Positions 1-29,408 of a stretch of 40,780 bases of DNA are shown one piece after another. Under the pieces are notes generated by a model. It searched no databases. It saw only the letters and a list, made by a program, of their open reading frames with translations, and was not told where the DNA came from. Both the position numbers and the translations under genes were made by a program. Location of the stretch: positions 1 through 40,780 of the IMG/VR virus record IMGVR_UViG_3300035180_000364. One strand, written 5' to 3'. Every line of letters begins with the position of its first letter. Position 1 is the stretch's first letter. The DNA comes from a virus.

Positions 1-355
1 CAAAGTTGTTTTGGTCGCATACTTGCAGTAGAACTTTATTGAGCACATCTGCGATCTGGTCGTCGCCGTCTGAGCGTGGTTTGATGTTAAACGATGCACG
101 TTTGTTGATATACTGGCCGAGAATTGCGGAAACCGTAGGGCGAATTAGATTCAATGTCAGTGCTGGACGTTTCGTTTCAGCCAACTCTTTTAGGTCGGCC
201 TCATCCCACTGTTCCCCCGCGAAAAACGACTCGCAACGATCCGCGTCTGTCATCCATTTCTGATGCTTTGCATCGTATGCGCGGCGAAAACTCGCCATCT
301 GGTTAGCGGCTACTTCGTCTAGGTTCGTGGGAAAGTCGTTCTGATTTACGTCCAT
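1..355 (-). CDS. Phage portal protein, P22-like (partial, N-terminal part only)
   Basis: The reading frame opens at an ATG at 355 and runs off the left edge, so about 118 N-terminal residues are visible. Portal proteins form the dodecameric ring at one capsid vertex through which DNA is packaged and ejected. The visible part has a signature typical of P22-type podovirus portals: FFAGEQW near residue 45, then a KRPALTLNLIRP stretch near residue 65, then ILGQYINKR and IKPRSDGDD. It lies directly downstream of the large terminase, the normal place for portal. A strong sigma70-like promoter overlaps the end of terL just upstream. The ribosome site is weak. The family call is from remembered motif pattern; the missing C-terminal part cannot be judged. 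Confidence 0.85.
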   Translation of the reverse strand, partial: MDVNQNDFPTNLDEVAANQMASFRRAYDAKHQKWMTDADRCESFFAGEQWDEADLKELAETKRPALTLNLIRPTVSAILGQYINKRASFNIKPRSDGDDQIADVLNKVLLQVCDQNNF

Positions 356-382
356 TTCTAGGCTCTAGGGTTGATTATGTTC

Positions 383-412
383 TTTATAACACGCGGTCCC
401 CTAATATGTCAA
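383..412 (-). promoter_or_regulatory. Sigma70-like promoter in front of portal
   Basis: Read on the minus strand, TTGACA (412-407) is followed after 18 bases by TATAAA (388-383). This is a near-consensus host promoter. The -35 box overlaps the terL stop codon region and the portal start follows about 28 bases after the -10 box. It would give portal and the following morphogenesis genes their own transcription start. Confidence 0.65.
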
Positions 413-1932
413 GCACTCATGTGGGTTGTACCACCACGCACACCAAGCTTCTTCAATCTATCCTTCCAAGACGGTTTTGGCTTCTCCTTTGTCTCTTGCG
501 GTGGGGATACATCGTTAATCATCCAACCGATATACGCCAAGGCGTCCACCTGGTCATCGTTACGGCCGTTTGGGAATTTCAAAAGCTCCGCCTCGAAATC
601 AGATAGCCACCCAGCCTGCTTGGGAAACAGTACTTTACCCTGCTCCATACGGGCGATGATGTTCATAGCACGCGCCGCTTTGTTAGATCGGCCAGGTGAT
701 AGCTTACTAATCGTAATATAGTGCTTCTGCTCATACATGAGCTTTTCCAGGATAGGCTCGATAGTCGCCTTGAGTTGGCCCACCTCCATACCGTTCTGCT
801 GTGTTTTCCACTGTTTCGCCGTATCTAATATGGTCTGCGCCGTGTCTAGTGAGGTAGATCGCTTACGCACCACATCTAGGATGTACAAGTTCTGTAGCCT
901 GTCCACCCCGGCCACCACGCCGACCGTGTAGTCGGTGCCAACCCCAGTAGATAAGTCCCACGCCACGAATGTCGTCATGTCCAACGCGTCTGGTGCCTCG
1001 TCGTAGTATTTGAAGTTAGCAGCCTTGAACAGATCGCCCTCAGTCGGTACGGGGTTCTGCTGGTACAGCGCGTTCCAGTCGCGGGTACCTACCGTGTTTT
1101 TGATACGTAGCAGCGCCGTCTCGTCATAACGGGCCGGGTGAAGGGCCTCCCCAGCTCGGCGGTTCGGCTCGTCCACCTCTGCAATAGCTGGGTAGCGAAT
1201 GATCTTGAACGGATCAGCAGTGTTCTCCTCGATGCGCCCACCGAGGTCGTCCTCGTGCCAACGTGTTTGGATTAGAAGGATACCGGACTGCGGAGCAAGA
1301 CGGGTGTAGGCTGTTGAGGTGTACCAGTCCCAGTTATTACGGCGCGCTGCCTCGGACTCGGCCTCCTGTCTATTGGAAATCGGGTCATCGATAATCAGAA
1401 TGTTCGCGCCCTTGCCCGTCAAACCACCGTCGGTACCTACAGCCGTGTAGCCACCAAGACGTGTTGTCTTCCATGCGTCCACACTCGCCATGTCTTTGTG
1501 TAGCTTGGTATCTGGGAACACGTTTGCATAATCAGGGTCACGCAGCAACTCACGAGCTTTCTTCGACATCTCAACCGACAAGTTGGCCGCATATGAAGCC
1601 ATGACGATCTCGAGTGTTGGGGTACGGCCTAACGCCCAGGCCGGAAACATGATGGAAGCTAACTGGCTCTTACCATGACGCGGTGGCATAAAGATGGCCA
1701 GACGTGGTGACTTGCCAGCCAACACATCGTCGTAGAACTGCATCAACGCGTCTGCGATCTCTTTGTGCACCCATCCTGCTTGATAAGTTGGCATCATGCG
1801 TTTAACAAACTGTAGTAGATCGCGTCGGGCTAACTCACGGCTTGCGATCTCGCGCTTGGCACTGATGGCCAACTGTGCCATTTTATCCTCATTGGCGAAG
1901 GGTTTCGGCGGCTCTTTGTATTCGTCAGTCAT
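409..1932 (-). CDS. terL: Terminase large subunit (ATPase and nuclease)
   Basis: This is the packaging motor: it pumps DNA into the prohead through the portal and cuts the concatemer. The 507-residue length is normal for TerL. Visible motifs are a Walker A PPRHGKS at residues 83-89, a Walker B ILIIDDP at 178-184, a coupling-type IQTRWHEDD at 221-229, and the RNase H-like nuclease with VAWDLS near residue 326 and GRNDDQVDALAY at 456-467. These fit the Terminase_6 / Terminase_6C pattern. The start overlaps the end of the small subunit gene by 8 bases, so translation is probably coupled. The C-terminus is basic and probably contacts portal (inference). Confidence 0.95.
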   Translation of the reverse strand: MTDEYKEPPKPFANEDKMAQLAISAKREIASRELARRDLLQFVKRMMPTYQAGWVHKEIADALMQFYDDVLAGKSPRLAIFMPPRHGKSQLASIMFPAWALGRTPTLEIVMASYAANLSVEMSKKARELLRDPDYANVFPDTKLHKDMASVDAWKTTRLGGYTAVGTDGGLTGKGANILIIDDPISNRQEAESEAARRNNWDWYTSTAYTRLAPQSGILLIQTRWHEDDLGGRIEENTADPFKIIRYPAIAEVDEPNRRAGEALHPARYDETALLRIKNTVGTRDWNALYQQNPVPTEGDLFKAANFKYYDEAPDALDMTTFVAWDLSTGVGTDYTVGVVAGVDRLQNLYILDVVRKRSTSLDTAQTILDTAKQWKTQQNGMEVGQLKATIEPILEKLMYEQKHYITISKLSPGRSNKAARAMNIIARMEQGKVLFPKQAGWLSDFEAELLKFPNGRNDDQVDALAYIGWMINDVSPPQETKEKPKPSWKDRLKKLGVRGGTTHMSA

Positions 1933-2311
1933 CGATCAGCTCCCCCTCAATCACATCACTGGTATCATTAATGAGGCGTAGTAGATCGTCGTTGGACATA
2001 GAGGTGATCTGCTTCTGTGCTTCCTCGAACGTGCCTTGGATCGTCACTGTCTGTTCTGGGGCATACAGGCCGTGCAGTTTACCCAGCTCTTTAGCCGCGT
2101 TTACCATCTCTGATGAGGTGTCTGCGTTCTCGTATGCCTCAAGTAACATGTTAGTGACAAGACCACGGTTGATCTGGCGTCGTGCGCGGGATGAGATTCG
2201 GTCTAAGCGTGACATGCCTACCCTCGTTATTTCTTTAATATGGTTCGGAGAGTAGCCGTCCTGCTGCATTATAAAAGCGACTTTCTCTGCCGTAGACAGA
2301 TGTACTTTCAT
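1925..2311 (-). CDS. terS: Terminase small subunit
   Basis: A 128-residue protein directly upstream of terL and overlapping it by 8 bases. TerS recognises the phage DNA and hands it to TerL. Residues 1-45 look like a helix-turn-helix region (STAEKVAFIMQQ, then HIKEITRVGMSRLDRIS), the middle is helical, and the C-terminus is acidic (DVIEGELIDD), as expected for a TerL-binding tail. The ATG at 2311 has a clear AGGAGA ribosome site. The identification rests mainly on position and the HTH-plus-acidic-tail layout, because small subunits diverge quickly. Confidence 0.82.
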   Translation of the reverse strand: MKVHLSTAEKVAFIMQQDGYSPNHIKEITRVGMSRLDRISSRARRQINRGLVTNMLLEAYENADTSSEMVNAAKELGKLHGLYAPEQTVTIQGTFEEAQKQITSMSNDDLLRLINDTSDVIEGELIDD

Positions 2312-2335
2312 TATGTCTCCTAATAGTGCTTTGGT

Positions 2336-2364
2336 AGTTTACGGGGTAGGGGGCGGCATGTCAA
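2336..2364 (-). promoter_or_regulatory. Sigma70-like promoter for terS and the late module
   Basis: On the minus strand a perfect TTGACA (2364-2359) is followed after exactly 17 bases by TAAACT (2341-2336), 4 of 6 matches to TATAAT. The terS start is 25 bases further on. The spacer is unusually rich in C on the coding strand. This is the most likely start point for terS-terL transcription by host RNA polymerase. Confidence 0.65.
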
Positions 2365-2480
2365 GTGGGGGGATTTTGTGGGAAATTTGCGCGTAGATTG
2401 TCTCCCCCTGTCCCAGCGACGCGGGGGCATCAACCCGATTCGCCTTTTTTGCGCGTCACTTTTCCGATTTTCAAATTCAA

Positions 2481-2503
2481 AAAATCAGTAAGTCGTTGAT
2501 TTT
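2481..2503. terminator. AT-rich stem-loop between the RHH gene and terS
   Basis: AAAATCA (2481-2487) pairs with TGATTTT (2497-2503) around a 9-base loop. On the minus strand the stem ends in a run of T, so it could end transcription of the RHH gene. The stem is weak. The rest of 2312-2526 holds the terS promoter, a C-rich and a G-rich tract near 2400-2425, and no gene that I can support. Confidence 0.35.
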
Positions 2504-2526
2504 ATTAGCCTTTATGTATGCACATC

Positions 2527-2754
2527 CTAGCGTGACACATTACTAACCCGTTGATTATTAAGGCGTTCATATTCTCGCTCGATTGCGCCTATAATAAGCG
2601 TAGACAATACAAAGGACGGGTTTATCCGCCTTATATCATCGAGTTTATTAATAACATCGGGTGACATCTTAAAAGACACTTGTTTATAGCCTTTGTCTTT
2701 GAGTCGTTTGTTATATGCCTTATCTGCCTTTAGTTGTGATTCATACTTTGCCAT
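2527..2754 (-). CDS. Small ribbon-helix-helix (Arc/MetJ-type) DNA-binding protein
   Basis: A 75-residue basic protein. Residues 24-60 have the RHH layout: a beta strand KQVSFKMS that would enter the major groove, then helix one (PDVINKLDDIRRI), a turn around NPSF, and helix two (VLSTLIIGAIEREYERL). The N-terminal 23 residues are charged and probably extended or helical. RHH proteins act as dimers on short operators and are usually repressors. The gene is divergent from the unknown gene at 3005, with the two near-identical promoter-leaders between them, so it may regulate itself and that gene (inference). The ribosome site is poor. It could instead be the antitoxin-like half of a pair, but no toxin is adjacent. 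Confidence 0.7.
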   Translation of the reverse strand: MAKYESQLKADKAYNKRLKDKGYKQVSFKMSPDVINKLDDIRRINPSFVLSTLIIGAIEREYERLNNQRVSNVSR

Positions 2755-2798
2755 GATGTTGTTTTATATACCTTTATTGGGTTTTTAGTGGAAAATGC

Positions 2799-2827
2799 TT
2801 GACTTCATGCCGTACATTCGATAATAA
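2799..2827 (+). promoter_or_regulatory. Promoter, copy A, for the gene at 3005
   Basis: TTGACT at 2799-2804. The -10 box is GATAAT (2820-2825, spacing 15) or the overlapping TAATAA (2822-2827, spacing 17). The AT-rich stretch makes the exact -10 uncertain. It faces the gene at 3005, away from the RHH gene. Confidence 0.55.
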
Positions 2828-2879
2828 TAAAAGCGTCGAAAGGCAAACGCCCGCCGACAAAACGAAAGACGAATAGCCC

Positions 2880-2908
2880 TTGACTTTTTACCGTGTATTC
2901 GATAACAT
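2880..2908 (+). promoter_or_regulatory. Promoter, copy B, for the gene at 3005
   Basis: TTGACT at 2880-2885, with GATAAC (2901-2906, spacing 15) or TAACAT (2903-2908, spacing 17) as -10 box. It is the second copy of the duplicated promoter-leader and the one nearest to the gene. Confidence 0.5.
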
Positions 2909-2941
2909 AGAAAGCGTCAAAGGCAATCGCCTCGATAAAAA

Positions 2942-2991
2942 GATACGCATAACAAAGCGTATCACGTAACCAAACAAACGCCATAAGGCGT
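2942..2991 (+). promoter_or_regulatory. 5' leader stem-loops before the gene at 3005
   Basis: Two stems lie between promoter B and the start codon. GATACGC (2942-2948) pairs with GCGTATC (2957-2963) around 8 bases, and ACGCC (2978-2982) pairs with GGCGT (2987-2991) around ATAA. The second stem sits three bases before the AAGGA ribosome site, so it could limit or help ribosome access. A small AGGC/GCCT stem is also present at 2921-2932. Confidence 0.45.
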
Positions 2992-3004
2992 AAAGGAATT
3001 ATAA

Positions 3005-3634
3005 ATGAACACTTCTTCATTGACCACTGCTATCCGCTCTTTAATCGCTAGTCATGGCGATAATAAACAACAATTACATGACCTTGCCGCGCAAGGTATT
3101 AAACATGCTTTAGAGCATGGGGATAGCAATGCTCTTGCTGTTACCAAAGAGCTGATTAGTATCGACCACACGGGCTTTCTATCCAAAGTGATTAGAATGG
3201 TTGACTTCGACCTACCAACCAAATTAGGGCGGCGTTTTGCGCTTAACAAAGCGCGTGGGAATGAGAGCGACGCTCTCAAGTTATGGGATTCAGCGTTTGA
3301 AGAGGCAGAAGCCAAAACGTTTGACGTTGAAAGCGCAACGGCATACGCTAATGATGCAAATGCTAAAATAGCAGTAAATACCGCTAAAATATTCCAATTA
3401 TCGGATTGGCTCGCCAATGCAACCGATGCCCCTAGCGTAGCACTAGAGGCAGTAGGGGCGGCTATCGACACTGCACACAAGCAAGTAACGGGATGGCAAT
3501 CAGATGTACGCGCCATTGCGTTCCTTTCTAGCGGCTCGGCAGACTATCCGCGCCTATCAGAACGCGATTTCGCCGCGTTTGAACGCGCCCTTTCTCGCAT
3601 GGTCAAACGTTTTGGCGGTAAATTGCCAGAATAA
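3005..3634 (+). CDS. Unknown protein, single-gene transcription unit (moron-like)
   Basis: A 209-residue protein that I do not recognise. The start is ATG at 3005 with ribosome site AAGGA. The sequence looks mostly alpha-helical and Ala-rich, with no signal peptide or membrane segment. Residues 1-90 are mixed polar helices. Residues 95-160 are Ala/Asn-rich (AYANDANAKIAVNTAKI). The C-terminus is basic (FERALSRMVKRFGGKLPE). It has two promoters, a structured leader and a private hairpin terminator, and lies between minus-strand late genes and the early operon. That is the usual layout of a moron, an added gene expressed on its own. Its role could be host takeover, defence or regulation; the sequence does not say which. 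Confidence 0.75.
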   Translation: MNTSSLTTAIRSLIASHGDNKQQLHDLAAQGIKHALEHGDSNALAVTKELISIDHTGFLSKVIRMVDFDLPTKLGRRFALNKARGNESDALKLWDSAFEEAEAKTFDVESATAYANDANAKIAVNTAKIFQLSDWLANATDAPSVALEAVGAAIDTAHKQVTGWQSDVRAIAFLSSGSADYPRLSERDFAAFERALSRMVKRFGGKLPE

Positions 3635-3643
3635 TAACCATCA

Positions 3644-3671
3644 TAGGTATCACCCGCAAAGGTGATACCTA
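3644..3671 (+). terminator. Strong stem-loop terminator after the gene at 3005
   Basis: TAGGTATCACC (3644-3654) pairs perfectly with GGTGATACCTA (3661-3671) around the loop CGCAAA. The 11-base-pair stem starts nine bases after the stop codon. There is only a weak T/A-rich tail after it, so it could be a terminator or a protective 3' stem. Confidence 0.65.
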
Positions 3672-4137
3672 CTTAATATAGTGTGCAAATATAAACCAAC
3701 GTTTTATATTTGTTCATTAAAAACCTACGCGAAAAGTAAGCGGTATCTGGCTTATAACAAGGCATTGGATACGCGCGAAAACCTTTGCTTCAATAATTGA
3801 CGGCTTTAGTAGTCTGTTAATTTAGGGGTAAAGACAAAGCCGCCGTTGAATCTTAGGATAATGGCGCGCTGGCAATCGACCAGCGATATAGTGTAGGGAC
3901 TGGAAAAACTAGCAATCGCCCGTTTTGCGGCATTGTACAGGCTATAATTGTGCCTTGTGTGTTGGTAGGTAAACAATCCGCCGAACATAAAAGGAACAGT
4001 TGAATAGTCTGGACGATGTGGACAAAAAGCGTCCAACGCAAAACGGATTGGTTGCTAGTCAAATAGTAGAATGCTTCAGGTTTGCTGAGGCTTTTGCACA
4101 TCTGCCATTTGACTAGCGACCATTGCAAGATTGGGGG
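3672..4137. other. Gene-poor stretch between the moron-like gene and the repeat region
   Basis: No convincing gene was found. Minus-strand frames at 3806-4036 and 3853-4158 exist but start only at TTG and lack ribosome sites. One structured element stands out: CGGCTTT (3801-3807) pairs with AAAGCCG (3836-3842), and inside it GTCT (3812-3815) pairs with AGAC (3832-3835), giving a bulged stem with a 16-base loop. The stretch may be decayed coding DNA or a small RNA. Confidence 0.4.
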
Positions 4138-4186
4138 AACAACCGAACGGCTAAACAACCGAAACGGCTAAACAACCGAACAAACG
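4138..4186 (+). repeat. Three tandem 16-17 base direct repeats
   Basis: The unit AACAACCGAACGGCTA occurs at 4138-4153, again with one added A at 4154-4170, and a third partial copy begins at 4171. The repeats are head to tail without spacers. They lie just upstream of the iteron-like block and probably belong to the same control or replication region. Confidence 0.7.
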
Positions 4187-4213
4187 TTCTGCCAATCCAC
4201 CAACCAAACGTAA

Positions 4214-4317
4214 GTTTGTTAGACTTTGGGGGTCAAAGTTAGACTTTGAAGGGGGGGAGAAACTCCTATATTTCAGACTCTTTTTTTATACTTTTGACGT
4301 TATAAAGTCTAACAAAC
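4214..4317. repeat. Perfect 14-base inverted repeat plus extra half sites
   Basis: GTTTGTTAGACTTT (4214-4227) is the exact reverse complement of AAAGTCTAACAAAC (4304-4317), with 76 bases between the arms. The core GTTAGACTTTG is also present at 4238-4248, exactly 20 bases after the copy at 4218-4228, and a variant GTTGGACTTTG is at 4361-4371. The 20-base step is two helical turns, so proteins would bind on the same DNA face. Confidence 0.7.
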
Positions 4318-4412
4318 CCTAACAAACTCTTTAACGCTATGTTCTTGCAAGCTTTTTTCTGTTGGACTTTGCTTTTTAGAAATCTAACAACTCCTAACAA
4401 ATCCTAACAACT
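4308..4412 (+). repeat. Iteron-like 10-base repeats YCTAACAANH (five copies)
   Basis: Copies are at 4308-4317, 4318-4327, 4383-4392, 4393-4402 and 4403-4412. Each reads TCTAACAA or CCTAACAA plus two variable bases. They occur as a pair and a triplet, always with an exact 10-base step. The gap between them contains T-rich tracts. The arrangement resembles initiator iterons or a cooperative regulator array. It sits directly upstream of the main early promoter, so it may be a replication origin, a control site for early genes, or both (inference). Confidence 0.65.
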
Positions 4413-4420
4413 TTTTTGTC

Positions 4421-4453
4421 TTGCCGAGTTGTTCCGACAATGGGTATTATACC
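4421..4453 (+). promoter_or_regulatory. Probable main early promoter with a palindrome over the -10 box
   Basis: TTGCCG (4421-4426), 18-base spacer, TATTAT (4445-4450). The -10 box lies inside the palindrome GGTATTATACC (4443-4453), which could be an operator. The first early gene starts at 4484 after a GGAGG ribosome site. No other good promoter is seen before the one at 14268, so this one may drive about ten kilobases of early genes apart from the leaky terminator at 4740. Confidence 0.5.
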
Positions 4454-4483
4454 ACAACTTATTAACCAACTGGAGGATAAATT

Positions 4484-4723
4484 ATGCCAGAAGAGGTATG
4501 GCGACCACTGGACTTGCTAGTACCGCCGCACGACAATCCAAAGGTAAACCTACGTGACCTTGGTTATGAGATTTCTAGTAAAAAGGCTGTCTCATTATTC
4601 CATAAGGACGGCCGTGTACAGGTATGGCGTGACACAAAGAGTGTGCGTGTGCCGCTGGGGTGGATGACCGCCTCCGTCAACGTAGACAAAGCGCACCGCA
4701 AATTGTTTCCCGAGCTATACTAA
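4484..4723 (+). CDS. Unknown small protein, first gene of the early region
   Basis: 79 residues, not recognised. The ATG has a strong GGAGG site. The sequence starts with a proline-rich part (WRPLDLLVPPHDNP), then a mixed alpha/beta part with many charged residues (SKKAVSLFHKDGRVQVWRD) and a conserved-looking VPLGWMTASVN. No membrane segment. It is the first gene after the main early promoter and is followed by its own terminator, so it is probably made early and in excess. Such first-position proteins often act on the host, but nothing in the sequence proves this. Confidence 0.7.
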   Translation: MPEEVWRPLDLLVPPHDNPKVNLRDLGYEISSKKAVSLFHKDGRVQVWRDTKSVRVPLGWMTASVNVDKAHRKLFPELY

Positions 4724-4739
4724 AAACGCTCACCCAAAC

Positions 4740-4765
4740 ACCTCCAGTTATCTGGGGGTTTTCTT
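4740..4765 (+). terminator. Rho-independent terminator after the first early gene
   Basis: ACCTCCAG (4740-4747) pairs with CTGGGGGT (4752-4759) around TTAT, with one G-T pair, and is followed by TTTTCTTT. This is a standard terminator shape. Since genes in the same direction start 25 bases later, it is probably partial and sets the ratio between the first gene and the rest. Confidence 0.65.
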
Positions 4766-4789
4766 TGTCCAAAAAGAGGTAATCGAAAA

Positions 4790-4936
4790 ATGAAATACTC
4801 ATTATTCTTCAACGCGGCTCGCCGTGAACAAACGCACAACAACGTCACCCCCGTCAGTCAACTGGGGACGGACGTAATTACCATCGCAGTGTACGGAACG
4901 GTGTTCGCCGTTGCATTACTAGCCTATCTTTCATAA
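4790..4936 (+). CDS. Small single-pass membrane protein
   Basis: 48 residues from the ATG at 4790, with the ribosome site AGAGGTAA. Residues 1-28 are polar with several Asn, Gln and Arg. Residues 29-48 form one membrane segment ending at the C-terminus (VITIAVYGTVFAVALLAYLS). This is a tail-anchored layout with the N-terminus probably in the cytoplasm. It overlaps nothing but is spaced tightly with its neighbours. Function unknown; small early membrane proteins in phages often block superinfection or change host membrane enzymes. Confidence 0.6.
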   Translation: MKYSLFFNAARREQTHNNVTPVSQLGTDVITIAVYGTVFAVALLAYLS

Positions 4937-4946
4937 GGAGATCGTC

Positions 4947-5126
4947 ATGCCAAACGCCTCATGGCTGTTAACTCAGCCTGTAATGACTAGCGCATCATTC
5001 GTGCGCCCTACTGAACGCCGTAACACTGGCAGACGTACAAGCAACGGGGCGCACTTGCGCCCAAGAACCCTACAAGAATTAGGGTCGGGCTGTTACAGAA
5101 CAGTAGCACGCCCGCAGTCAGTATGA
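4947..5126 (+). CDS. Small basic unknown protein
   Basis: 59 residues from the ATG at 4947, with an AAGGAG ribosome site. Strongly basic, with a cluster RPTERRNTGRRTSNG in the middle and a single Cys near the end. No membrane segment. The stop codon overlaps the start of the next gene as ATGA, so the two are translationally coupled. The overlap and the ribosome site support it as a real gene. No function can be assigned; the charge suggests nucleic acid binding. Confidence 0.55.
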   Translation: MPNASWLLTQPVMTSASFVRPTERRNTGRRTSNGAHLRPRTLQELGSGCYRTVARPQSV

Positions 5127-5929
5127 ACATTGACGAGGCTATACGCCTCGTTTCCGAATTACCATCAAACCCGCGGGGCGACGACGTATATTCTAAACGT
5201 CAAGCCGAGGCTGCCGCTATATTCAAGCGGGTTGCCGCACTACCACGCTTTGTGGTGAGTAGCTATGACAACACGACAAAGCCACCAGCTCTGTATAGAT
5301 GGACTGGGGAGCCGATGCCCTATCCTGCATTGACCGTAGTTCGTTCGGCGCCTGAGTGGAAGATGGTACTGGTTATGGCGCTAGGGTACAAGGACGATGC
5401 GGTGTACGTGGCACTTTCTTCCGTACAAGGCGGCACGGCGGTACCTGTCTTGACGGTTATCTACGAGTTCGACACTGCCGCGAACGAATGGACAGCGCGC
5501 TATCTCCCATTATGGGAGAAGCTCGATCCTAGGTCGGCTGACCATGAGCCACATTTCCTGGGTTTCGCCAGGGTAGTGGTTGGCGACGCGGTAGAGGTAC
5601 TGGCGGGCATTAAGACTGCCCAATACCTGACCACACAATCGATAATAAAACCTAGGGGCAAGAAGAAGAGCGGGCGCACATTGCCCCTTGTCACGCTACA
5701 CACGGTCACGATCAATCCTAACCCGCCACCCGTCGTTACAAATACCAGTGGTCAACGTACTGGCGTTCGTCAACGTGAGCACTGGAGGCGTGGTACGTGG
5801 TGCACAATCAAGAGAACAGGCACACGCTACTGGCGCAGTGCCTGTAAAGCAGGTGACGCCTCGCTAGGTGTCATCATAAAAGACTATGTAATCGAAGGAA
5901 ACAAAGATGAACCATCAACAAATCGCTAA
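5123..5929 (+). CDS. Unknown protein with a C-terminal HWRRG phage motif
   Basis: 268 residues. The N-terminal 200 residues are mixed alpha/beta and not recognised. Residues 220-260 carry HWRRGTW, then TGTRYWRSACKAGD, then GVIIKDYVI. This matches in outline a short C-terminal motif (H-x-RRG-H-W, a glycine, a Trp, then GD and DY) often seen in phage proteins of unknown function. A basic linker (IIKPRGKKKSGR) precedes it. The start overlaps the previous stop and its end overlaps the AAA ATPase gene by 23 bases, so it belongs to the same operon. It may be a partner of that ATPase (inference from position only). Confidence 0.75.
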   Translation: MNIDEAIRLVSELPSNPRGDDVYSKRQAEAAAIFKRVAALPRFVVSSYDNTTKPPALYRWTGEPMPYPALTVVRSAPEWKMVLVMALGYKDDAVYVALSSVQGGTAVPVLTVIYEFDTAANEWTARYLPLWEKLDPRSADHEPHFLGFARVVVGDAVEVLAGIKTAQYLTTQSIIKPRGKKKSGRTLPLVTLHTVTINPNPPPVVTNTSGQRTGVRQREHWRRGTWCTIKRTGTRYWRSACKAGDASLGVIIKDYVIEGNKDEPSTNR

Positions 5930-6944
5930 TCTAATCGCGTCTACTGGCGCAGATGTAACGTATCTTGTTACTGGAGAACCAGGAATTGGAAAGAGCGACC
6001 TGCTCAAACGACTATCAACAGCGCTCCCTAAGCACGAACCCATTTACGTCGACTGCCCAACGCTCGATCTGCCAGACGTGCAGCTACCTTATGTTGAAGC
6101 AGGCACGGCACGTTTTGCAACCAACGCCATGTGGGGCGTTGATAACCCCAAACCTAAGCTCATCATGCTCGATGAGCTGCCAAAAAGTTCTAACGTAACG
6201 CGCCTGCTGTTTACACGACTGCTGTTAGACCACGTGATTGGGGCGTACGCCCTGCCCGCTGGCTCAATCGTCTTCGCTACTGGCAATCGCACCGTTGACG
6301 GCGTTGGGGATTCATTCCCAGCCCACATGAACAATAGGGTAACGTCTATCCAACTGGACAAGCCAACAGCCGAGAGTTGGTTGGAGTGGGCAGACACAGC
6401 AGGAATTGACCCAGTATTAAAGGCGTGGGTCAACCAGTTCCCACATTGTATGGCGGAGGCGAACTCGCCTCAAAACCCATACGTGTTTGACACGAAGCAC
6501 CGAACAACGTCTTTCGTATCGCCTCGTTCTTTAGCTAAGGCGTCTCACATCATTGCGGCGCGTAGTCAACTGGGGAAAGAAACCACATACGCCGCGCTTG
6601 CTGGCACATTAGGTGACTCTGCGGCTGCGGACATCTCTACCTATATCGACTTAGCTAACCAGCTACCGAGCTGGGACATGATCATGCGTGACCCACAAGG
6701 CGCGCCTATCCCAAGCGCGGTACCTGCACAATTGATTATCGCCTATGGCATGGCTGACCGTGTTAAAGCGGTGTCCAAGAAAGACTTTAAGGATACCGTG
6801 CAGGCATTGGTTGAATATGGGCAACGCCTACATTTGGAAGTGGCAGCCGTAGCCTTTAGCGGGCTTGTTAAAGCCTCGGTCATGAGTGTAACCGTCCCTG
6901 CTTTACAGTCTTGGGCGAAGGAGAATAGCTGGAGTTTGAAATGA
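5907..6944 (+). CDS. MoxR-type AAA+ ATPase
   Basis: 345 residues. The motifs are clear: Walker A GEPGIGKS at 23-30, Walker B KLIMLDE at 84-90, sensor 1 ATGNR at 124-128 and an arginine-finger candidate in MNNRV near 144. The C-terminal half is helical. MoxR-type ATPases form rings and work as chaperones with VWA-domain partners, inserting metals or remodelling complexes. The matching VWA/metallopeptidase protein is encoded 1.3 kb downstream in the same operon. Phage N4 carries a comparable ATPase and VWA pair (gp25 and gp24, from memory). The gene overlaps the previous one by 23 bases and the next by 4 (ATGA). The target in the infected cell is unknown. Confidence 0.88.
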   Translation: MNHQQIANLIASTGADVTYLVTGEPGIGKSDLLKRLSTALPKHEPIYVDCPTLDLPDVQLPYVEAGTARFATNAMWGVDNPKPKLIMLDELPKSSNVTRLLFTRLLLDHVIGAYALPAGSIVFATGNRTVDGVGDSFPAHMNNRVTSIQLDKPTAESWLEWADTAGIDPVLKAWVNQFPHCMAEANSPQNPYVFDTKHRTTSFVSPRSLAKASHIIAARSQLGKETTYAALAGTLGDSAAADISTYIDLANQLPSWDMIMRDPQGAPIPSAVPAQLIIAYGMADRVKAVSKKDFKDTVQALVEYGQRLHLEVAAVAFSGLVKASVMSVTVPALQSWAKENSWSLK

Positions 6945-7213
6945 CAACTGACGTGGATAAGGACATACAGCACATAGTCCGTTGTTATACAGATGGGTAT
7001 CGCACCATCAGTAAGATCAACGGACGCCCCGTTGCGCTAGTCGGCCGTGCATCGAAGATGGGCATGGTTAGGCGTTTATTTACTGTGTATGGACTGACTG
7101 ATGGTCTTGTTGAGCACCTGCTGCGGGACGTGCAGAATACAAACGAGGCTATGCCACCTGGTGAGCTTACCCCGCTCTTGCATTACTACGTGCGGACTAA
7201 CCCGCCCGCATAA
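6941..7213 (+). CDS. Unknown small protein in the MoxR-VWA cassette
   Basis: 90 residues, starting at an ATGA overlap with the ATPase stop, so translation is coupled. The sequence is mixed alpha/beta (VRCYTDGYRTISKINGRPVALVGRASKMGMVRRLF), then a helical acidic part and a Pro-rich end (MPPGELTPLLHYYV). No membrane segment or metal site seen. The tight link suggests it works with the ATPase, possibly as an adaptor (inference). Confidence 0.7.
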   Translation: MTTDVDKDIQHIVRCYTDGYRTISKINGRPVALVGRASKMGMVRRLFTVYGLTDGLVEHLLRDVQNTNEAMPPGELTPLLHYYVRTNPPA

Positions 7214-7239
7214 CCAAAAGTAACAGAAGGAACCGAATA

Positions 7240-8223
7240 ATGTCTTACACACCGCCTGCGTTTGACGCGAAACTCAATATGCACAACCGCTATAAAAAAT
7301 TGGGTGAGACACTGGCAACACAACTCGACCCATACTTTGAGGCAACGGCGTTTGCCGCGAACTCTACATCGGGGTGGGACACGCGACACCACGGGTTCTT
7401 ACTCGCCAATCCAGACAAGTTGGCTGATGCCCTATTCTACCGCGCCATGATCGGTCTTAATAAAGAACCGGCCACGGTCAGGAATTATGATGCGATGTGC
7501 AGCGGTAAGGTAGCAGTGAGTGGCCGCGTCATGGGCTACGCCGTTGACGTTAAGATGACAACACTGTCTTCCTATGAAATAGTGCTATACGTACACCCAC
7601 AGACAACGATCATCCTGCGCCGTCGTCCAGACACAGCGACAGGCGGGCGGTACTCTCTATTGTTTGTAACAGGATCACCGCAAGTCGTGACTAGTTCTAT
7701 GGCCAGGTTTTTATGGAAGGTTGCTGGCATAGAGTTCAGTGATAACAAATACTGGTTCGACCGTCTCGTGCGGACACGTACGTTTACGTTCCACCACGAC
7801 ACAGAGAGAAAGACGTTACATAAGCGCGGCTCGATGTACTATGACATAGTTGAGCAGCCTAACGGTGTACCGCAGGTGGAGGTGGTGTCAGTCAACGGAA
7901 TACCAGCGCCAACATTCACACCCAACAGGCGTAAGAACAAGCAACTAAAGGAGTACCTACAGGCGGCGACGTCTATCCTAGATACATTCGCGGCACTTAC
8001 TGACCTAAAGGTGGTGCGCCCTAGCGAAATGGGGTGGGGGGTTGTGGACATACCGTCCAAGCTCATGGACATGTCGCTTAAAGGCGTGTCCCTTGAGGAC
8101 TTCTGCCAAGCCCTATCTGCTGCGTTGGTGATCACCAAGTCTTTTGGCGTGATCTGTCTACCAACCAGAGTACAGCTTAAGCACATCATACGTATCGCTA
8201 TTGATGGATACGAGGAGGACTAA
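7240..8223 (+). CDS. Unknown protein in the MoxR-VWA cassette
   Basis: 327 residues, ribosome site AGAAGGAA, ATG at 7240. The protein looks like mixed alpha/beta with a beta-rich middle (residues 85-150: VAVSGRVMGYAVDVKMTTLSSYEIVLYVHPQTTIILRRR in two pieces), a basic region KTLHKRG and NRRKNKQLKEYL, and a helical end. I do not recognise it. Its stop overlaps the start of the metallopeptidase/VWA gene as TAATG, so the two are coupled. It may be a specificity or substrate protein of the ATPase-VWA machine. Confidence 0.72.
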   Translation: MSYTPPAFDAKLNMHNRYKKLGETLATQLDPYFEATAFAANSTSGWDTRHHGFLLANPDKLADALFYRAMIGLNKEPATVRNYDAMCSGKVAVSGRVMGYAVDVKMTTLSSYEIVLYVHPQTTIILRRRPDTATGGRYSLLFVTGSPQVVTSSMARFLWKVAGIEFSDNKYWFDRLVRTRTFTFHHDTERKTLHKRGSMYYDIVEQPNGVPQVEVVSVNGIPAPTFTPNRRKNKQLKEYLQAATSILDTFAALTDLKVVRPSEMGWGVVDIPSKLMDMSLKGVSLEDFCQALSAALVITKSFGVICLPTRVQLKHIIRIAIDGYEED

Positions 8224-9356
8224 TGACGACCATATCAACCGAACAGCGCATCACACGCGCTAACATTGCCATCATGCGCTCAAGTGCATGGGGCTTCTTA
8301 GGTGGCATCATCAAAACCGGTGCCGTCTCTTTGTCTAACGACGTACAAACAGCCGCCACTGACGGCTACAACGTGATGTACAACCCACGATTCATCGAGT
8401 CACTGACCGACCAAGAGATTCGATTCCTCGTGCTGCACGAGAATATGCACAAGGCGTACAAGCACATGTCCCTGTGGCAGGGCTTGCATCGTCGCAACCC
8501 TCAGTTGGCTAATGCAGCAATGGACTATGTTATCAACATAGAAATCCTCGACAACAAAGGCGACCTCGACGTTAGTATGCCAGCCGGTGGCCTGTACGAC
8601 ACAGCCTTCCGTGGTATGGACACACCAACCGTCTTCAGACTACTGGAGCAGGACGGAGAGGGCGGCGGTGGCAGCGATCCGAAGTATGGTAAAGGCTCGC
8701 CACTAGATGAGCACGAAATGGGTGATGCCGACATTACAGACGCACAAGCGGCCGAATTAGAGGTAGCTATTCGACAAGCAGCCGGGTCAGCACCGGGTAA
8801 CAAAGCACGGGAACTGCAAAACGCAGTGGCTCGTAAACGGAATTGGCGCGAGGCGCTTATGGACGATTGGGCTACCGTTGTGCCAGGCCGTGACGACCAG
8901 TCATGGGCACGGGTCAACCCCGTCTACTTGTCTATGGGCATCTACCTACCAGGCTCGGTAACACAAGCAGCCAAGCACGTCAACTTCTGCATTGACACCT
9001 CCGGTTCTATCACGCAGGAGACGCTCAGTATGGCGGCCGCTACCGTAGCCGACCTGTGTCAGACCTACCCTCCTGAAAGCCTAAACGTGGTCTGGTGGGA
9101 CACAGAGGCCTATGTGCAGTCTGTGCCAGACACTGAGTATGCGAATGTAGCGACACTATTGAAACCACAAGGCGGCGGTGGGACTGACCCACGCTGCTTA
9201 TTAGAACACTTAACGCCGGACTCATACACCGTCATCTTGACTGACGGGTGGTTCGGCACAACCAAACCAGAAGAATGGCCAGATAAACTCGTGTGGCTGT
9301 TAACCAACGACGGAACGGACAAGTACATCGGTTCCGGCAAAGTAATGGAGATGTAA
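8223..9356 (+). CDS. DUF2201-type protein: metallopeptidase-like domain plus VWA domain
   Basis: 377 residues with two domains. Residues 1-130 hold a zincin-like HExxH motif, HENMH at 72-76, followed by a helix with NAAMDYVINIEI. A Gly/Asp-rich linker (145-175) follows. Residues 250-375 form a VWA domain with MIDAS motifs DTSGS at 258-262, GGGGTD at 317-322 and LTDG at 339-342. This is the DUF2201 layout. Such proteins are the usual partners of MoxR ATPases, and phage N4 has a related protein. The HExxH suggests possible zinc hydrolase activity, but many members may be only structural. It starts inside the stop of the previous gene. Confidence 0.87.
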   Translation: MTTISTEQRITRANIAIMRSSAWGFLGGIIKTGAVSLSNDVQTAATDGYNVMYNPRFIESLTDQEIRFLVLHENMHKAYKHMSLWQGLHRRNPQLANAAMDYVINIEILDNKGDLDVSMPAGGLYDTAFRGMDTPTVFRLLEQDGEGGGGSDPKYGKGSPLDEHEMGDADITDAQAAELEVAIRQAAGSAPGNKARELQNAVARKRNWREALMDDWATVVPGRDDQSWARVNPVYLSMGIYLPGSVTQAAKHVNFCIDTSGSITQETLSMAAATVADLCQTYPPESLNVVWWDTEAYVQSVPDTEYANVATLLKPQGGGGTDPRCLLEHLTPDSYTVILTDGWFGTTKPEEWPDKLVWLLTNDGTDKYIGSGKVMEM

Positions 9357-18312: not shown

Positions 18313-18416
18313 TAACATAGGCGGTACACTCGGCGTACGCTGAATGGATGGCATGGCATTGGCCAAAGACCAACCAGTCATATCATATAGACAATATCTT
18401 ACAAAGGAAATTCATA

Positions 18417-18926
18417 ATGTACAAGACAACACATATTGGTCATAAAAATATTATGGCTACACCTATGTCCCGTGGAGACTATAACAAGTATCGCGGGTGG
18501 GAACTGCCTTCAAACGAGCGATACGACGATGATGGATACTTAGTCGAGTACGAACCTCGTGTAGGTGAAACGTCTAACGTTCAAGGGCACGACGGCTATG
18601 TTTCATGGTCGCCGAAACAGGTGTTCGACGGCGCATACCATGATGTAAACAATGCGTTACCTTTTGGACTAGCACTAGAACTAGCGAAGCAAGGCTGCGC
18701 CATCGCACGGAAAGGGTGGAATGGTAAGGGCTTAAAAGTATCTGTGCAACAACCGACCGAAGGCTCAGACATGGGTCTGCCATACCTATACATGCAGTAT
18801 CCGGCTACTCCTGCAAGTGATAATGCCCCAAGCTCTCATATTAATGCACGAGTACCTTGGTTAGCATCACAAACGGATATTTTAAGTTCTGATTGGTTTA
18901 TCGTAAAAGAAGATAAGGAAAGTTAA
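18417..18926 (+). CDS. tad2: Tad2-like anti-Thoeris sponge (DUF2829) with N-terminal phage domain
   Basis: 169 residues from the ATG at 18417, chosen for its AAAGGAA site; an in-frame start 69 bases earlier lacks one. Residues 82-165 are a DUF2829/Tad2 domain: PFGLALELAKQG, then ARKGWNGKG, then LPYLYMQ, then ARVPWLASQTDILSSDW. Known Tad2 proteins sequester the Thoeris signal gcADPR, and some also bind cyclic dinucleotides. Residues 15-74 are a separate phage domain (MSRGDYNKYRGWELP, then GYLVEY, then GYVSWSPKQVF) often found in small phage proteins. The fusion is longer than the roughly 85-residue stand-alone Tad2. The Acb2-like gene follows with no gap. Confidence 0.85.
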   Translation: MYKTTHIGHKNIMATPMSRGDYNKYRGWELPSNERYDDDGYLVEYEPRVGETSNVQGHDGYVSWSPKQVFDGAYHDVNNALPFGLALELAKQGCAIARKGWNGKGLKVSVQQPTEGSDMGLPYLYMQYPATPASDNAPSSHINARVPWLASQTDILSSDWFIVKEDKES

Positions 18927-19151
18927 ATGGAAAATCAACATCGTTTAATAACTGGCTATCGTGAACTAAGCCAGGAAGAGATAGACTTAATGAATGACAT
19001 CAAACAAGTTGGGCAAACACTTGGGGCACTAACCCAGCGTCTGTTAGATACGGACTCGACAGACAAGCGTTGGGTAAGTATCGGGCGAACAGATTGTCAA
19101 ACCGGGGTCATGGCGTTGGTTCGTAGTGTAGCTAAACCAACTTCTTTCTAA
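18927..19151 (+). CDS. acb2: Acb2-like anti-CBASS cyclic nucleotide sponge
   Basis: 74 residues, ATG immediately after the Tad2-like stop codon. The pattern is that of Acb2/Tad1 hairpin-domain proteins: MENQHRLITGYRELSQEEID, then LMNDIKQVGQ, a helix ALTQRLL, then RWVSIGRTDCQTG, then VMALVRSVAKPTSF at the C-terminus. Acb2 forms hexamers that bind the cyclic di- and trinucleotides made by CBASS cyclases so that the effector is not switched on. The length and the C-terminal A-x-P-x-x-F match the family. Being fused in one operon with a Tad2-like gene gives the phage cover against two signal types. The AAGGAAAG site lies within the previous gene. Confidence 0.85.
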   Translation: MENQHRLITGYRELSQEEIDLMNDIKQVGQTLGALTQRLLDTDSTDKRWVSIGRTDCQTGVMALVRSVAKPTSF

Positions 19152-22688: not shown

Positions 22689-23202
22689 CATTATGATCGA
22701 TTTAGAAACACTAGATACAACACCGGATGCAACAATCCTTAGCATTGCGGCCGTAGCGTTCGATAGGTATGGGAACATAGCCGGGAAGTTACACGGATAT
22801 ACGAAAGACTGTCCGTCCGGCAGTACTACAAAGTCCATGGATACGGTGCTGTGGTGGATGGTGCAGGACGATGAAGCACGGAAGCTACAGGCAGGCGCAG
22901 AGCGCGATCCACTCACCCACGTCCTCAAGGAATTATCCGGCTTTTTCAGGAGCTTCGAGGGGCAGGAAATAGCTGTGTGGGGCAACGGAGCGGCGTTCGA
23001 TAATGTAATCCTTCGCCGAGCATACGAGCGCAATGGGCTAGAAGCACCGTGGTTGTACCGACAAGACCGATGCTACCGAACACTGGCCAAGTTATTTCCA
23101 TGCGTTAAGGCGCAGGAGTTTGCAGGTACCAAGCACGACGCACTATCTGATGCAATGAACCAGGCGAGGCATCTGTGGGAAATCCTGAAGAAGATAAAAT
23201 AA
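22681..23202 (+). CDS. 3'-5' exonuclease, DEDDh type
   Basis: 173 residues with a GTG start at 22681 and a strong AAGGAG site. Motif Exo I INIMIDLETLD at the N-terminus (D and E), Exo II WGNGAAFDNVIL near residue 100 (D), and Exo III HDALSDAMNQARHL near 145 (H and D). Resembles the exonuclease VIII/Rv2179c-like group. Likely a DNA or RNA 3' trimming enzyme in the replication module. The preceding gene overlaps its start by 8 bases. Confidence 0.88.
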   Translation: MINIMIDLETLDTTPDATILSIAAVAFDRYGNIAGKLHGYTKDCPSGSTTKSMDTVLWWMVQDDEARKLQAGAERDPLTHVLKELSGFFRSFEGQEIAVWGNGAAFDNVILRRAYERNGLEAPWLYRQDRCYRTLAKLFPCVKAQEFAGTKHDALSDAMNQARHLWEILKKIK

Positions 23203-23471
23203 GGCGCAGACGCGCCCAACTCATGGTTCATTCCTACCTGTATTACGAGCTGGATACCCCGATGATTACGGACGACAAATGGCAGGAGTGGGCTAATGAG
23301 TTGGTCGGATTACAGCGAGAACACACAGACCCTATCGGATTCTTCGACGACCTGTTCAAAGATTTCGACGGGTCTACTGGGTATCATCTAACAAAGAACG
23401 AGTGGGCACGTAATGTAGCAACTCGTTTACTAATGTACAATCCGCACACAAGAGACGGCTTAAACCTTTAG
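23175..23471 (+). CDS. LigA-related protein (resembles the N-terminal end of NAD-dependent DNA ligase)
   Basis: 98 residues, GTG start at 23175 overlapping the exonuclease by 28 bases; an ATG at 23223 is an alternative start that would cut the conserved helix. IRRRRAQLMVHSYLYYELD, then PMITDDKWQEWANELVGLQ resembles domain Ia of LigA (the NMN-binding YYxLD-x-P-x-I-x-D stretch). No catalytic K-x-D-G motif or any later ligase domain. Such stand-alone proteins are known in phages as DNA ligase LigA-related proteins. It may bind NAD or NMN; its role is not known. Confidence 0.7.
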   Translation: MGNPEEDKIRRRRAQLMVHSYLYYELDTPMITDDKWQEWANELVGLQREHTDPIGFFDDLFKDFDGSTGYHLTKNEWARNVATRLLMYNPHTRDGLNL

Positions 23472-23479
23472 GAGGACGT

Positions 23480-25678
23480 ATGGACGTTCTGTTTTTAGAC
23501 TTCGAGACATACTACGACGACCAATACTCGCTCACCAAGATGACTACCGCAGAGTACATCAAGGACGAGCGCTTCAAGGTTATCGGTGCGTCTTATGCAC
23601 ACGGGGAAGGCCCTACGCGCTGGGCCGATCCTATGCAACTGTTTGCCCTAATCTCGGAGACGGATTGGGCTAACACCAAACTGGTGGCACACAACACCAC
23701 GTTCGATGGGGCGATCCTATCGTTTGTATATGGCGTACAGCCTGCTATGCTAGGTGACACGCTCAGTATGGCCCGGTACGTGTTCGACATGAGTAGATAC
23801 AATCTAGCGAGCGTGGCTAAGTTGTTGGGTTTGCCGGACAAAGGCAACGCGCTAGTCGACACAAAAGGCAAGACAGAGTTAACCAAAGAGGAATATGATG
23901 CGTTAGTAGATTACGCAATTCGTGATACAGAAATTTGCCAGGCCGCATATTACAAGATGCTGCCATCATTGCCGAAAAACGAGCACGCGCTTATTGACAT
24001 TACCCTGCGTATGTATACCAACCCGCGCCTCAAGTGCCTGTCACCTAAGTTGCGTGAGTACGAGGAACGCCTACGGGGCGAGTTGGCCAACAAGCAGGAC
24101 GATGTGTTAGGAAAGCTGCGCGAAGTTCTAGGCGATACCCCACTTACCGAGGACGCGCAAGTGTTCACATCAAACAAGAAGTTCGAGAGCCTACTTATCG
24201 ACTTGGGTGTGGATATTCCAAAGAAATTAAAACGAGCCACGCCTCACCAAGCGGCGCGATCTATGGCCAGACGCGACAAAATGCTGGAACAGGTCGGCAT
24301 AAACACGGCGAAGATAGAATGGTACACGACAGACATTTCGACGATTAGCGATGCGTTGGCTGCCCGCGAAGCGTCCGGCAAGAACATGAGCACGAAAAAG
24401 GTAGCAGCAGCGCGCGAGCAACTCGAGCGCAGGCACGGACAAATCGCCGACTTAAAAAGAGCCAACGAGAGTTTGGAAGCTGACATCAAGAATGCGCTTA
24501 TTGTCAAGAAGGGCCAACTACTAGAGGTCCCTGCACTAGCCAAGAACGACCAAGGATTGCTCGATCTGCTGGAGCACGACGACGATCTAGTAGTGGATGT
24601 GGTAGACGCTCGTATCGGCTCGATGTCGACGATCAATATGACGCGCGCCGTCAAGTTAGCAAACGTAGCGGACGCTATGGACGGCTATCTCCCAGTACCT
24701 TTAGCTTACTGTGCTGCGGGTACAAACCGTTGGGGCGGTCGTGAGTACAATATGCAGAACCTACCAGCACGTGGACGCGACAAGACATTGCGCGAATCTC
24801 TAGTAGCACCGGAGGGTTACAAGATTATCGCGGCCGACTTAGCACAGATCGAACCGCGAGTCCTGGCGTGGCTTGCGGGTGAGGAGGCGTTGCTGGAATC
24901 GTTTAGGTCTGGCCGAGATTTCTACACGGCGCTGCATGGAAAGATTTTCGGCAGCGACTATGACACCATGTACGCGGGTTACAAGAACGACGAGTACGAA
25001 TGGGTGTATGCACGAAACGTAGCGAAAGCCGTTGGCTTGGGGCTTGGTTTCGGGCAAGGCCACAAGAACTTCGTAAACTTCGCTAAGGTAGCTGCCAAGG
25101 TTACATTGTCAGAGGAAGAATCGAAGGACATCGTGAACGCTTACCGTGACGGGGTGCCCGGTATTTCACAGTTCTGGCAGACCTGTAACGACCTGTTACC
25201 GGCCATGTCTACGAACGCGGCGCTTAATGTGGTTCGCAATAAGTGCCTATTCCGTAGGGGGTTTATCTACCTACCGTCAGGGCGCATGTTACGTTATGAC
25301 AACCTGCGGTCTGAGGAGATTGCCGAGTTGGACGAGAACGGCGATGTGAGCGGCAAGCGGCGCGCATGGGTCTATGGACCGCACGGCGTTGTGCGGTTCA
25401 TCTACGGCTCGAAGGTAGTGGAGAATCTGGTACAAGCGCTGGCCCGAGACATCGTAGCAGACATGGCTATTCAGGTAGATGGCCTGTTAGATCGCACGTC
25501 AGGAGAGTCGATCGTTATGTTGGTACACGATGAAATCGTTGCGGTGGTACAAGAAGGTCGTGTAGACTATCTATCAGAAGAAATAAAGCGCATCATGCAC
25601 ACCACGCCAAGCTATACACCGGGGCTACCGGTGGCTTGTTCGTTGCATGTTGCTAACAATTATGCGGAGGCAAAATAA
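23480..25678 (+). CDS. DNA polymerase, family A, with 3'-5' exonuclease domain
   Basis: 732 residues, GGAGG site. Exonuclease domain: DFET at 7-10, HNTTFDG at 71-77 and YAIRDTE at 145-151. Polymerase motifs: A AADLAQIEPR at 451-460 (Asp 453), B-like RNVAKAVGLGLGFGQG at 512-527, C LVHDE at 681-685. There is NRWGG and MQNLPARG near 416-431. In place of the usual short linker before motif A, residues about 250-345 form a long charged insertion with a coiled coil (AREQLERRHGQIADLKRAN). Phe 524 occupies the position that sets discrimination against dideoxynucleotides in related polymerases (inference). This is the replicative polymerase. Confidence 0.93.
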   Translation: MDVLFLDFETYYDDQYSLTKMTTAEYIKDERFKVIGASYAHGEGPTRWADPMQLFALISETDWANTKLVAHNTTFDGAILSFVYGVQPAMLGDTLSMARYVFDMSRYNLASVAKLLGLPDKGNALVDTKGKTELTKEEYDALVDYAIRDTEICQAAYYKMLPSLPKNEHALIDITLRMYTNPRLKCLSPKLREYEERLRGELANKQDDVLGKLREVLGDTPLTEDAQVFTSNKKFESLLIDLGVDIPKKLKRATPHQAARSMARRDKMLEQVGINTAKIEWYTTDISTISDALAAREASGKNMSTKKVAAAREQLERRHGQIADLKRANESLEADIKNALIVKKGQLLEVPALAKNDQGLLDLLEHDDDLVVDVVDARIGSMSTINMTRAVKLANVADAMDGYLPVPLAYCAAGTNRWGGREYNMQNLPARGRDKTLRESLVAPEGYKIIAADLAQIEPRVLAWLAGEEALLESFRSGRDFYTALHGKIFGSDYDTMYAGYKNDEYEWVYARNVAKAVGLGLGFGQGHKNFVNFAKVAAKVTLSEEESKDIVNAYRDGVPGISQFWQTCNDLLPAMSTNAALNVVRNKCLFRRGFIYLPSGRMLRYDNLRSEEIAELDENGDVSGKRRAWVYGPHGVVRFIYGSKVVENLVQALARDIVADMAIQVDGLLDRTSGESIVMLVHDEIVAVVQEGRVDYLSEEIKRIMHTTPSYTPGLPVACSLHVANNYAEAK

Positions 25679-29013: not shown

Positions 29014-29408
29014 CTGCCCTGCATACTGGATTTCAGTTGTTCCGCGGCCAGCGTCGACGCCTCGGCTCTTGCCCGCGCCTCTGCCTCGGCCGCCGCCCTA
29101 TCTGCATCCCGGGTATTAGCCGCTGAGAAGTATAGGCTAAAAACCATATTGTACACATCTGCATGTGTAAACGTAACGCCGGTGGGGAGCAGAGTGTCTG
29201 GAGACACCATGTTTACAACGGCTTCCGACGAGAACCGCACCGAACAGGTATCACTGATAGAAGTCGCAACGCCACCGCTCTCAGATTTCACAGCATCTTC
29301 TTCGGAGAAAGCCACGTAAGGCACGCCGCCTAAATCGTTGCTGATTGTGACAGTGCGGCAACGACGGTATATTGTGCCGACAGGTACATTACTAGAATAA
29401 TTAGGCAT
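29010..29408 (-). CDS. Small virion-associated or fibre-linked protein
   Basis: 132 residues, the last gene of the late operon. The N-terminal part is beta-rich (VPVGTIYRRCRTVTISND, then VPYVAFSEED), the C-terminal 35 residues are an Ala/Glu-rich helix (ADRAAAEAEARARAEAST). Its start overlaps the end of the tail-fibre gene by 8 bases, so it is coupled to it and may be a fibre chaperone or a small tail part (inference). Confidence 0.65.
   Translation of the reverse strand: MPNYSSNVPVGTIYRRCRTVTISNDLGGVPYVAFSEEDAVKSESGGVATSISDTCSVRFSSEAVVNMVSPDTLLPTGVTFTHADVYNMVFSLYFSAANTRDADRAAAEAEARARAEASTLAAEQLKSSMQGS

Follow-up and report, generated by a model that had tools for sequence, protein, structure and literature searches.

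What is the role of the dense cluster of repeats that stands between the late and the early genes of this viral genome? The DNA analyzed here (the window) is the 40,780-nucleotide IMG/VR record IMGVR_UViG_3300035180_000364, a fragment of an incomplete genome. In the related contig G024, TerS, TerL and homologues of the genes at the right end of the window are all encoded on a single late strand. This gene order indicates that the missing part, inferred to be roughly 16 kb, connects the two ends of the window, and that positions 2312-4484 are a control region separating the late (minus-strand) block from the early (plus-strand) block. The repeats occupy about 300 bases of noncoding DNA, referred to below as the array, with late genes on one side and early genes on the other. 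The features that are relevant to the analysis are the following.

2527-2754: gene for an RHH-like protein (predicted strand-helix-helix model, moderate confidence)
3005-3634, plus strand: early gene 5′ of the folded stretch, encoding a 209-amino-acid protein of no known family
3634-4137, plus strand: strongly folded noncoding stretch of about 500 nt, candidate structured RNA
4138-4187, plus strand: three tandem 16-17-bp units, with AACAACCGAAM at 4138, 4154 and 4171 (steps of 16 and 17 bp)
4214-4248, minus strand: left opposed motif set, TTGTTAGACTTT and, at 4238, GTTAGACTTTG, 20 bp apart
4251-4257, plus strand: seven consecutive G; the record has no other run of this length or longer, of G or of C
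4262-4303: AT-rich stretch (74% AT), candidate unwinding element
4304-4325, plus strand: right opposed motif set, TCTAACAA at 4308 and CCTAACAA at 4318, 10 bp apart
4361-4371, minus strand: third motif in reverse orientation, GTTGGACTTTG
4383-4410, plus strand: three copies of YCTAACAA in exact 10-bp steps (4383, 4393, 4403), followed by T6
4421-4450, plus strand: predicted early promoter, weak, sigma-70-type, TTGCCG-18-TATTAT
4484-4723, plus strand: first early gene past the array, encoding a 79-amino-acid protein of no known family
23480-25678, plus strand: family A DNA polymerase (PolA), presumed replicase
25679-28378, plus strand: helicase-primase (DUF5906; NrS-1 polymerase helicase domain), candidate initiator

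A first-pass annotation of the sequence had described most of these repeats. Its three tandem units were found as stated; they include CTAAACAAC, and a longer form of the unit, AACGGCTAAACAACCGA, is present twice. The T-runs between motifs were confirmed, as was the perfect 14-bp inverted repeat, whose arms (4214-4227 and 4304-4317) are separated by 76 bp. The sequence GTTRGACTTTG was indeed located at 4218, at 4238 (20 bp away) and at 4361, with no other site in the record, but it does not hold as an element of its own. TTGTTAGACTTT, which covers the arm at 4214-4227, is the reverse complement of AAAGTCTAACAA, and therefore GTTRGACTTTG and CTAACAA are not independent but largely one motif. 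The copy GTTAGACTTTG at 4238 sits within a short palindrome, TCAAAGT-TAG-ACTTTGA (4233-4249). There are also five copies of YCTAACAA, as annotated, but they do not form a single series of 10-base steps: one cluster is at 4308 and 4318, the other at 4383, 4393 and 4403, and 65 bp lie between the clusters. Most elements of the array are thus a single TAACAA-type motif present on both strands. Their order is two minus-strand copies, the seven-G run, the AT-rich stretch and two plus-strand copies, then one minus-strand copy, three plus-strand copies and the promoter. The second, smaller opposed set (minus at 4361; plus at 4383, 4393 and 4403) adjoins the predicted promoter. The 150 bp that start at 4267 have the lowest stability in the first 30 kb and rank fourth across the whole record.

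The repeats of the array are real, far beyond chance, and their density is unique in the record. As a control, 1000 dinucleotide-preserving shuffles of the array region were compared with the natural sequence. CTAACAA was observed five times (shuffle mean 0.10, maximum 2) and exact 7-mer matches phased at 10 bp seven times (mean 0.07, maximum 4), while the longest direct repeat was 18 bp (mean 8.7, maximum 13) and the inverted repeat 14 bp (mean 8.0, maximum 13), with P ~0.001 in all four cases. Phased 7-mer matches at periods of 8, 9, 11 or 12 were absent from the array. Words of the TAACAA or AACAAC type reach 9 per 300 bp in the array, compared with a record mean of 0.47 and a maximum of 3 elsewhere. 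Searches of phage and plasmid collections with the control-region DNA detected no similarity. The triple CTAACAA pattern gave, among all viral contigs and beyond the identical contig, seven matches in unrelated contexts or in simple A/C-rich repeats, and the double pattern was absent from the records of the PolA relatives.

Among the close relatives, contig L014 is 100% identical across window positions 1-9320 and does not constitute independent evidence. Contigs L019 and L055 end at window coordinates 2272 and 3827, respectively, both short of the array. A block of 1,083 bp of coding and noncoding DNA is 74.6% identical between the window and L055. The TerS proteins of the two are 100% identical (window 1925-2526; L055 3008-3610), and TerL is 65% identical. 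L019 carries, at about 604-1620, an intein-like insert of approximately 1 kb in the terminase large subunit gene, while the terL of the window has no insert.

More distant relatives with the same late and early layout were found through TerL, PolA and the helicase-primase (phages KPP25 and phiA008) or by PolA (RHph_TM3_14A). In each of the three, the opening few early genes are followed by a noncoding gap of 400-770 bp, and it is in this early gap that the genome has its 100 bp of lowest stability. KPP25 (NC_024123, Kochitakasuvirus) has two repeat regions, 26,219-26,895 and 58,070-58,634, about half a genome apart (31.8 of 64.1 kb), and 21 of its 22 TCGTRACA sites fall within these two gaps. 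The early gap contains two copies of TGTTACGA on the minus strand, AT-rich DNA, two copies of TCGTRACA on the plus strand and then further copies. The second gap, at 58.1-58.6 kb, has the same kind of layout (two to three plus-strand copies over the two gaps); it is flanked by late-strand genes and is not ahead of an early gene. KPP25 resembles the window in its related TerL, PolA and helicase-primase and in having AT-rich DNA flanked by opposed TAACA-type pairs about one helical turn apart, an arrangement of which one example is in the early gap. It differs in that TCGTRACA recurs in 8-9-bp steps in two regions, whereas CTAACAA recurs in 10-bp steps in the window, and the origin role of the KPP25 regions is also putative.

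The uncultured contig G002 (IMG/VR 3300032242_001167), which encodes the MoxR-type ATPase closest to that of the window (39%) when the identical contig is set aside, has its early gap at 29,319-29,900. Within this gap, a perfect 19-bp inverted repeat (106 bp apart) has TTGTTATAA at its core, and TAACAA words number eight over the two strands (0.8 in shuffles). The two segments of lowest stability in G002 are also located there. As in the window, AT-rich DNA and a perfect inverted repeat with a TTGTTA core follow an early gene of comparable length; unlike the window, the motif is TTATAACAATA and both the 10-bp series and a homologue of the window RNA described below are missing. Comparison with related phages, which the first-pass annotation had recommended, gave a divided answer: the opposed motif layout is shared by KPP25 and G002, but the AT-rich gaps of phiA008 and RHph_TM3_14A have no significant repeats. 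In contig G009, the noncoding DNA 5′ of the early genes is AT-rich and contains repeats of the word CTTGACA, which could be promoter boxes. The early noncoding DNA of G023, G021 and G007 presented a mixed picture.

Taken from sequence comparison, these observations make it somewhat probable that 4138-4440 acts in cis as the replication origin of the phage and overlaps with the region that controls the first early promoter, and we favour an origin module over a pure regulator array. As in iteron origins, several short direct copies of a motif are clustered in noncoding DNA and adjoin AT-rich, easily melted DNA. The origin reading is based on repeats that exceed chance and are unique in the record; on KPP25, where map position and motif layout are the same and the element order matches the first part of the order in the window; on the inverted repeat and TAACAA words in the early gap of G002; on the early gap as the place of lowest stability over 100 bp in KPP25, phiA008, RHph_TM3_14A and G002; on the early gap also being where TAACA-type motifs are densest in the window, G002 and KPP25; and on the replication genes common to these phages. 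In such a module, a phage initiator would occupy adjacent tandem TAACAA-type copies at a spacing of one helical turn. The simplest candidate would be the helicase-primase (25679-28378), whose helicase domain matches the structure of the NrS-1 polymerase helicase, or else an early DNA-binding protein. The bound initiator may help melt the AT-rich DNA at 4262-4303 between the opposed sets (minus at 4216 and 4238; plus at 4308 and 4318) and would load both the helicase-primase and the family A polymerase of the phage. Binding to the same motifs would also modulate the early promoter. We found no described origin for KPP25-like phages, phiA008 and their uncultured relatives, a group whose members encode both a polymerase of family A and a helicase-primase. 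That such phages have AT-rich DNA flanked by opposed TAACA-type sets in the early gap is a prediction testable in the cultured phage KPP25.

Immediately upstream of the array, from 3634 to about 4140, is the most strongly folded segment of the record (folding z = -11.6 on the plus strand and -5.1 on the minus strand), a feature that the first-pass annotation had missed. Two 200-nt windows within this segment exceed all others of the record in over-stability. L055 shares 197 nt of this stretch with 90.4% identity. Only 3 of the 19 differing positions hit the 108 paired positions of the structure predicted from the window alone (P ~2e-4), and 53 of 54 base pairs are kept in L055. The comparison of these two sequences contained no double compensatory changes, so covariation is unsupported. 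Possible minus-strand open reading frames in 3806-4158 have poor codon scores and look noncoding. No Rfam family matched 3634-4137 at gathering or relaxed thresholds. A covariance model of the 5′ part of the RNA recovered the window itself and had no match in 20 related records, and therefore the RNA looks lineage-specific. The RNA pattern had no match in genome-collection scans, its relatives being found only among the contigs of this sample; two additional matches, within coding sequence, appear to be due to chance. The neighboring 209-amino-acid protein likewise gave no match in genome-collection scans and no convincing similarity among the early genes of isolate phages. The stretch 3634-4137 is, as judged from predicted folding, a candidate large noncoding RNA, and it is a separate lead towards an undescribed phage RNA. 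GOLLD and ROOL are large, highly structured, phage-encoded noncoding RNAs (PMC12286853). The folded stretch is predicted to resemble them in being large, highly structured, noncoding and located in a phage; it differs in that it has no Rfam match, the window has no tRNAs and it adjoins an origin-like region. The loop of one of its hairpins (window 3685-3712; L055 4682-4708) is exactly reverse-complemented in L055, with the stem unchanged.

The first-pass annotation had left the choice between an iteron origin and a cooperative regulator array. The layout of the distant relatives KPP25 and G002 favours the origin half of that proposal, and the regulator half stays in play because the array abuts the predicted promoter. 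It is possible, with a distinctly lower probability, that the array is a transcription control site only, where a phage or host regulator would bind the phased CTAACAA copies cooperatively and activate or repress the promoter at 4421-4450, the distal inverted copies permitting looping. The last three YCTAACAA copies end 10 bp ahead of the predicted -35 box, and the 10-bp phasing places the sites on the same face of the helix. The promoter match, however, is weak (score 9/12, with about five equal matches expected by chance in the stretch), and in KPP25 the opposed sets around AT-rich DNA recur at 58.1-58.6 kb, between late-strand genes. The RHH-like protein gene is close by, and this protein had been suggested as the ligand, but the link is not supported: the gene is absent from L055, which retains its surroundings and whose contig ends ahead of the array. 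Other observations go against the origin reading. The compared regions are themselves candidate origins, and the phiA008 and RHph_TM3_14A gaps are without significant repeats. The AT-rich part ranks only fourth in the record, AT-richness is common in intergenic DNA anyway, the shared TAACA core is short, and the candidate initiator gene is about 21 kb from the array. GC skew, proposed earlier as a check, gave no consistent support, with a broad minimum in the window, the opposite in KPP25 and an unclear result in phiA008.

A transcript-primed origin, for which RNA II of ColE1 is the model, seems improbable. The structured RNA of about 500 nt (3634-4137, plus strand), or an extension of it, would form an R-loop at the seven-G and AT-rich sequences and prime the family A polymerase, with the opposed TAACAA sets controlling opening. 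The strongest fold of the record is just upstream and on the correct strand, substitutions respect its structure, the only seven-G run is directly ahead of the AT-rich stretch, PolA is phage-encoded, and no intrinsic terminators were predicted on the plus strand between fold and array. Against these stand the lack of a predicted promoter immediately 5′ of 3634, the candidate status of the RNA and its absence from the distant relatives searched. If true, this reading would give the ColE1 RNA II origin a counterpart among phages, together with a previously undescribed RNA. The tandem 16-17-bp units resemble in size those of lambda cosB, and the array is about 2 kb upstream of terS; a packaging site (cos or pac) where the terminase small subunit binds these units is nonetheless very unlikely, since two genes intervene between the array and terS and a more natural candidate is the G-rich noncoding stretch at 2312-2526, right 5′ of terS, which shows good conservation in L055. 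Least credible is a phage attachment site: its tandem arms, spaced by 10 bp in both orientations, would resemble the lambda P′ arm sites, which are arm-type integrase sites, but no integrase or recombinase families were detected among the Pfam-scanned proteins of the window, which lacks about 16 kb of the genome.

The favoured origin module can be compared with known systems. The ori and crr of satellite phage P4 consist of short iterons in two groups, and its alpha protein, a helicase-primase, is a primase-helicase fusion. By analogy, the window may combine two groups of short iterons with primase-helicase replication, although the iteron sequence differs. NrS-1 polymerase initiates at TTTGGTTA (PMC8718748), and the NrS-1 phage has one such site per strand, the proposed origin (PMC7102993). 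The TTTGTTAG of the window is similar to, but not the same octamer as, TTTGGTTA and constitutes a lead; exact copies of the latter occur five times in the window and never in the array. In the PLE satellite of V. cholerae, a noncoding repeat region is needed for replication in the phage context (PMC7145576). Unlike the window, that origin has a RepA_N initiator and iterons that converge on poly-A tracts (PMC7145576).

Other features were observed in the window. An imperfect tandem repeat, with a TTGACT-containing promoter-like site in each copy, occupies 2799-2910 in the space that separates the RHH gene from the first early gene, and a matching tandem pair occurs in L055. Immediately 5′ of the polymerase gene, 23175-23471 encodes a stand-alone 98-amino-acid Nlig-Ia domain (the N-terminal NAD+-binding domain of DNA ligase), the rest of the ligase being missing beside it. 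Two neighboring genes, 18348-18926 and 18927-19151, code for Tad2-like and Acb2/Tad1-hairpin proteins and form a small anti-Thoeris/anti-CBASS island.
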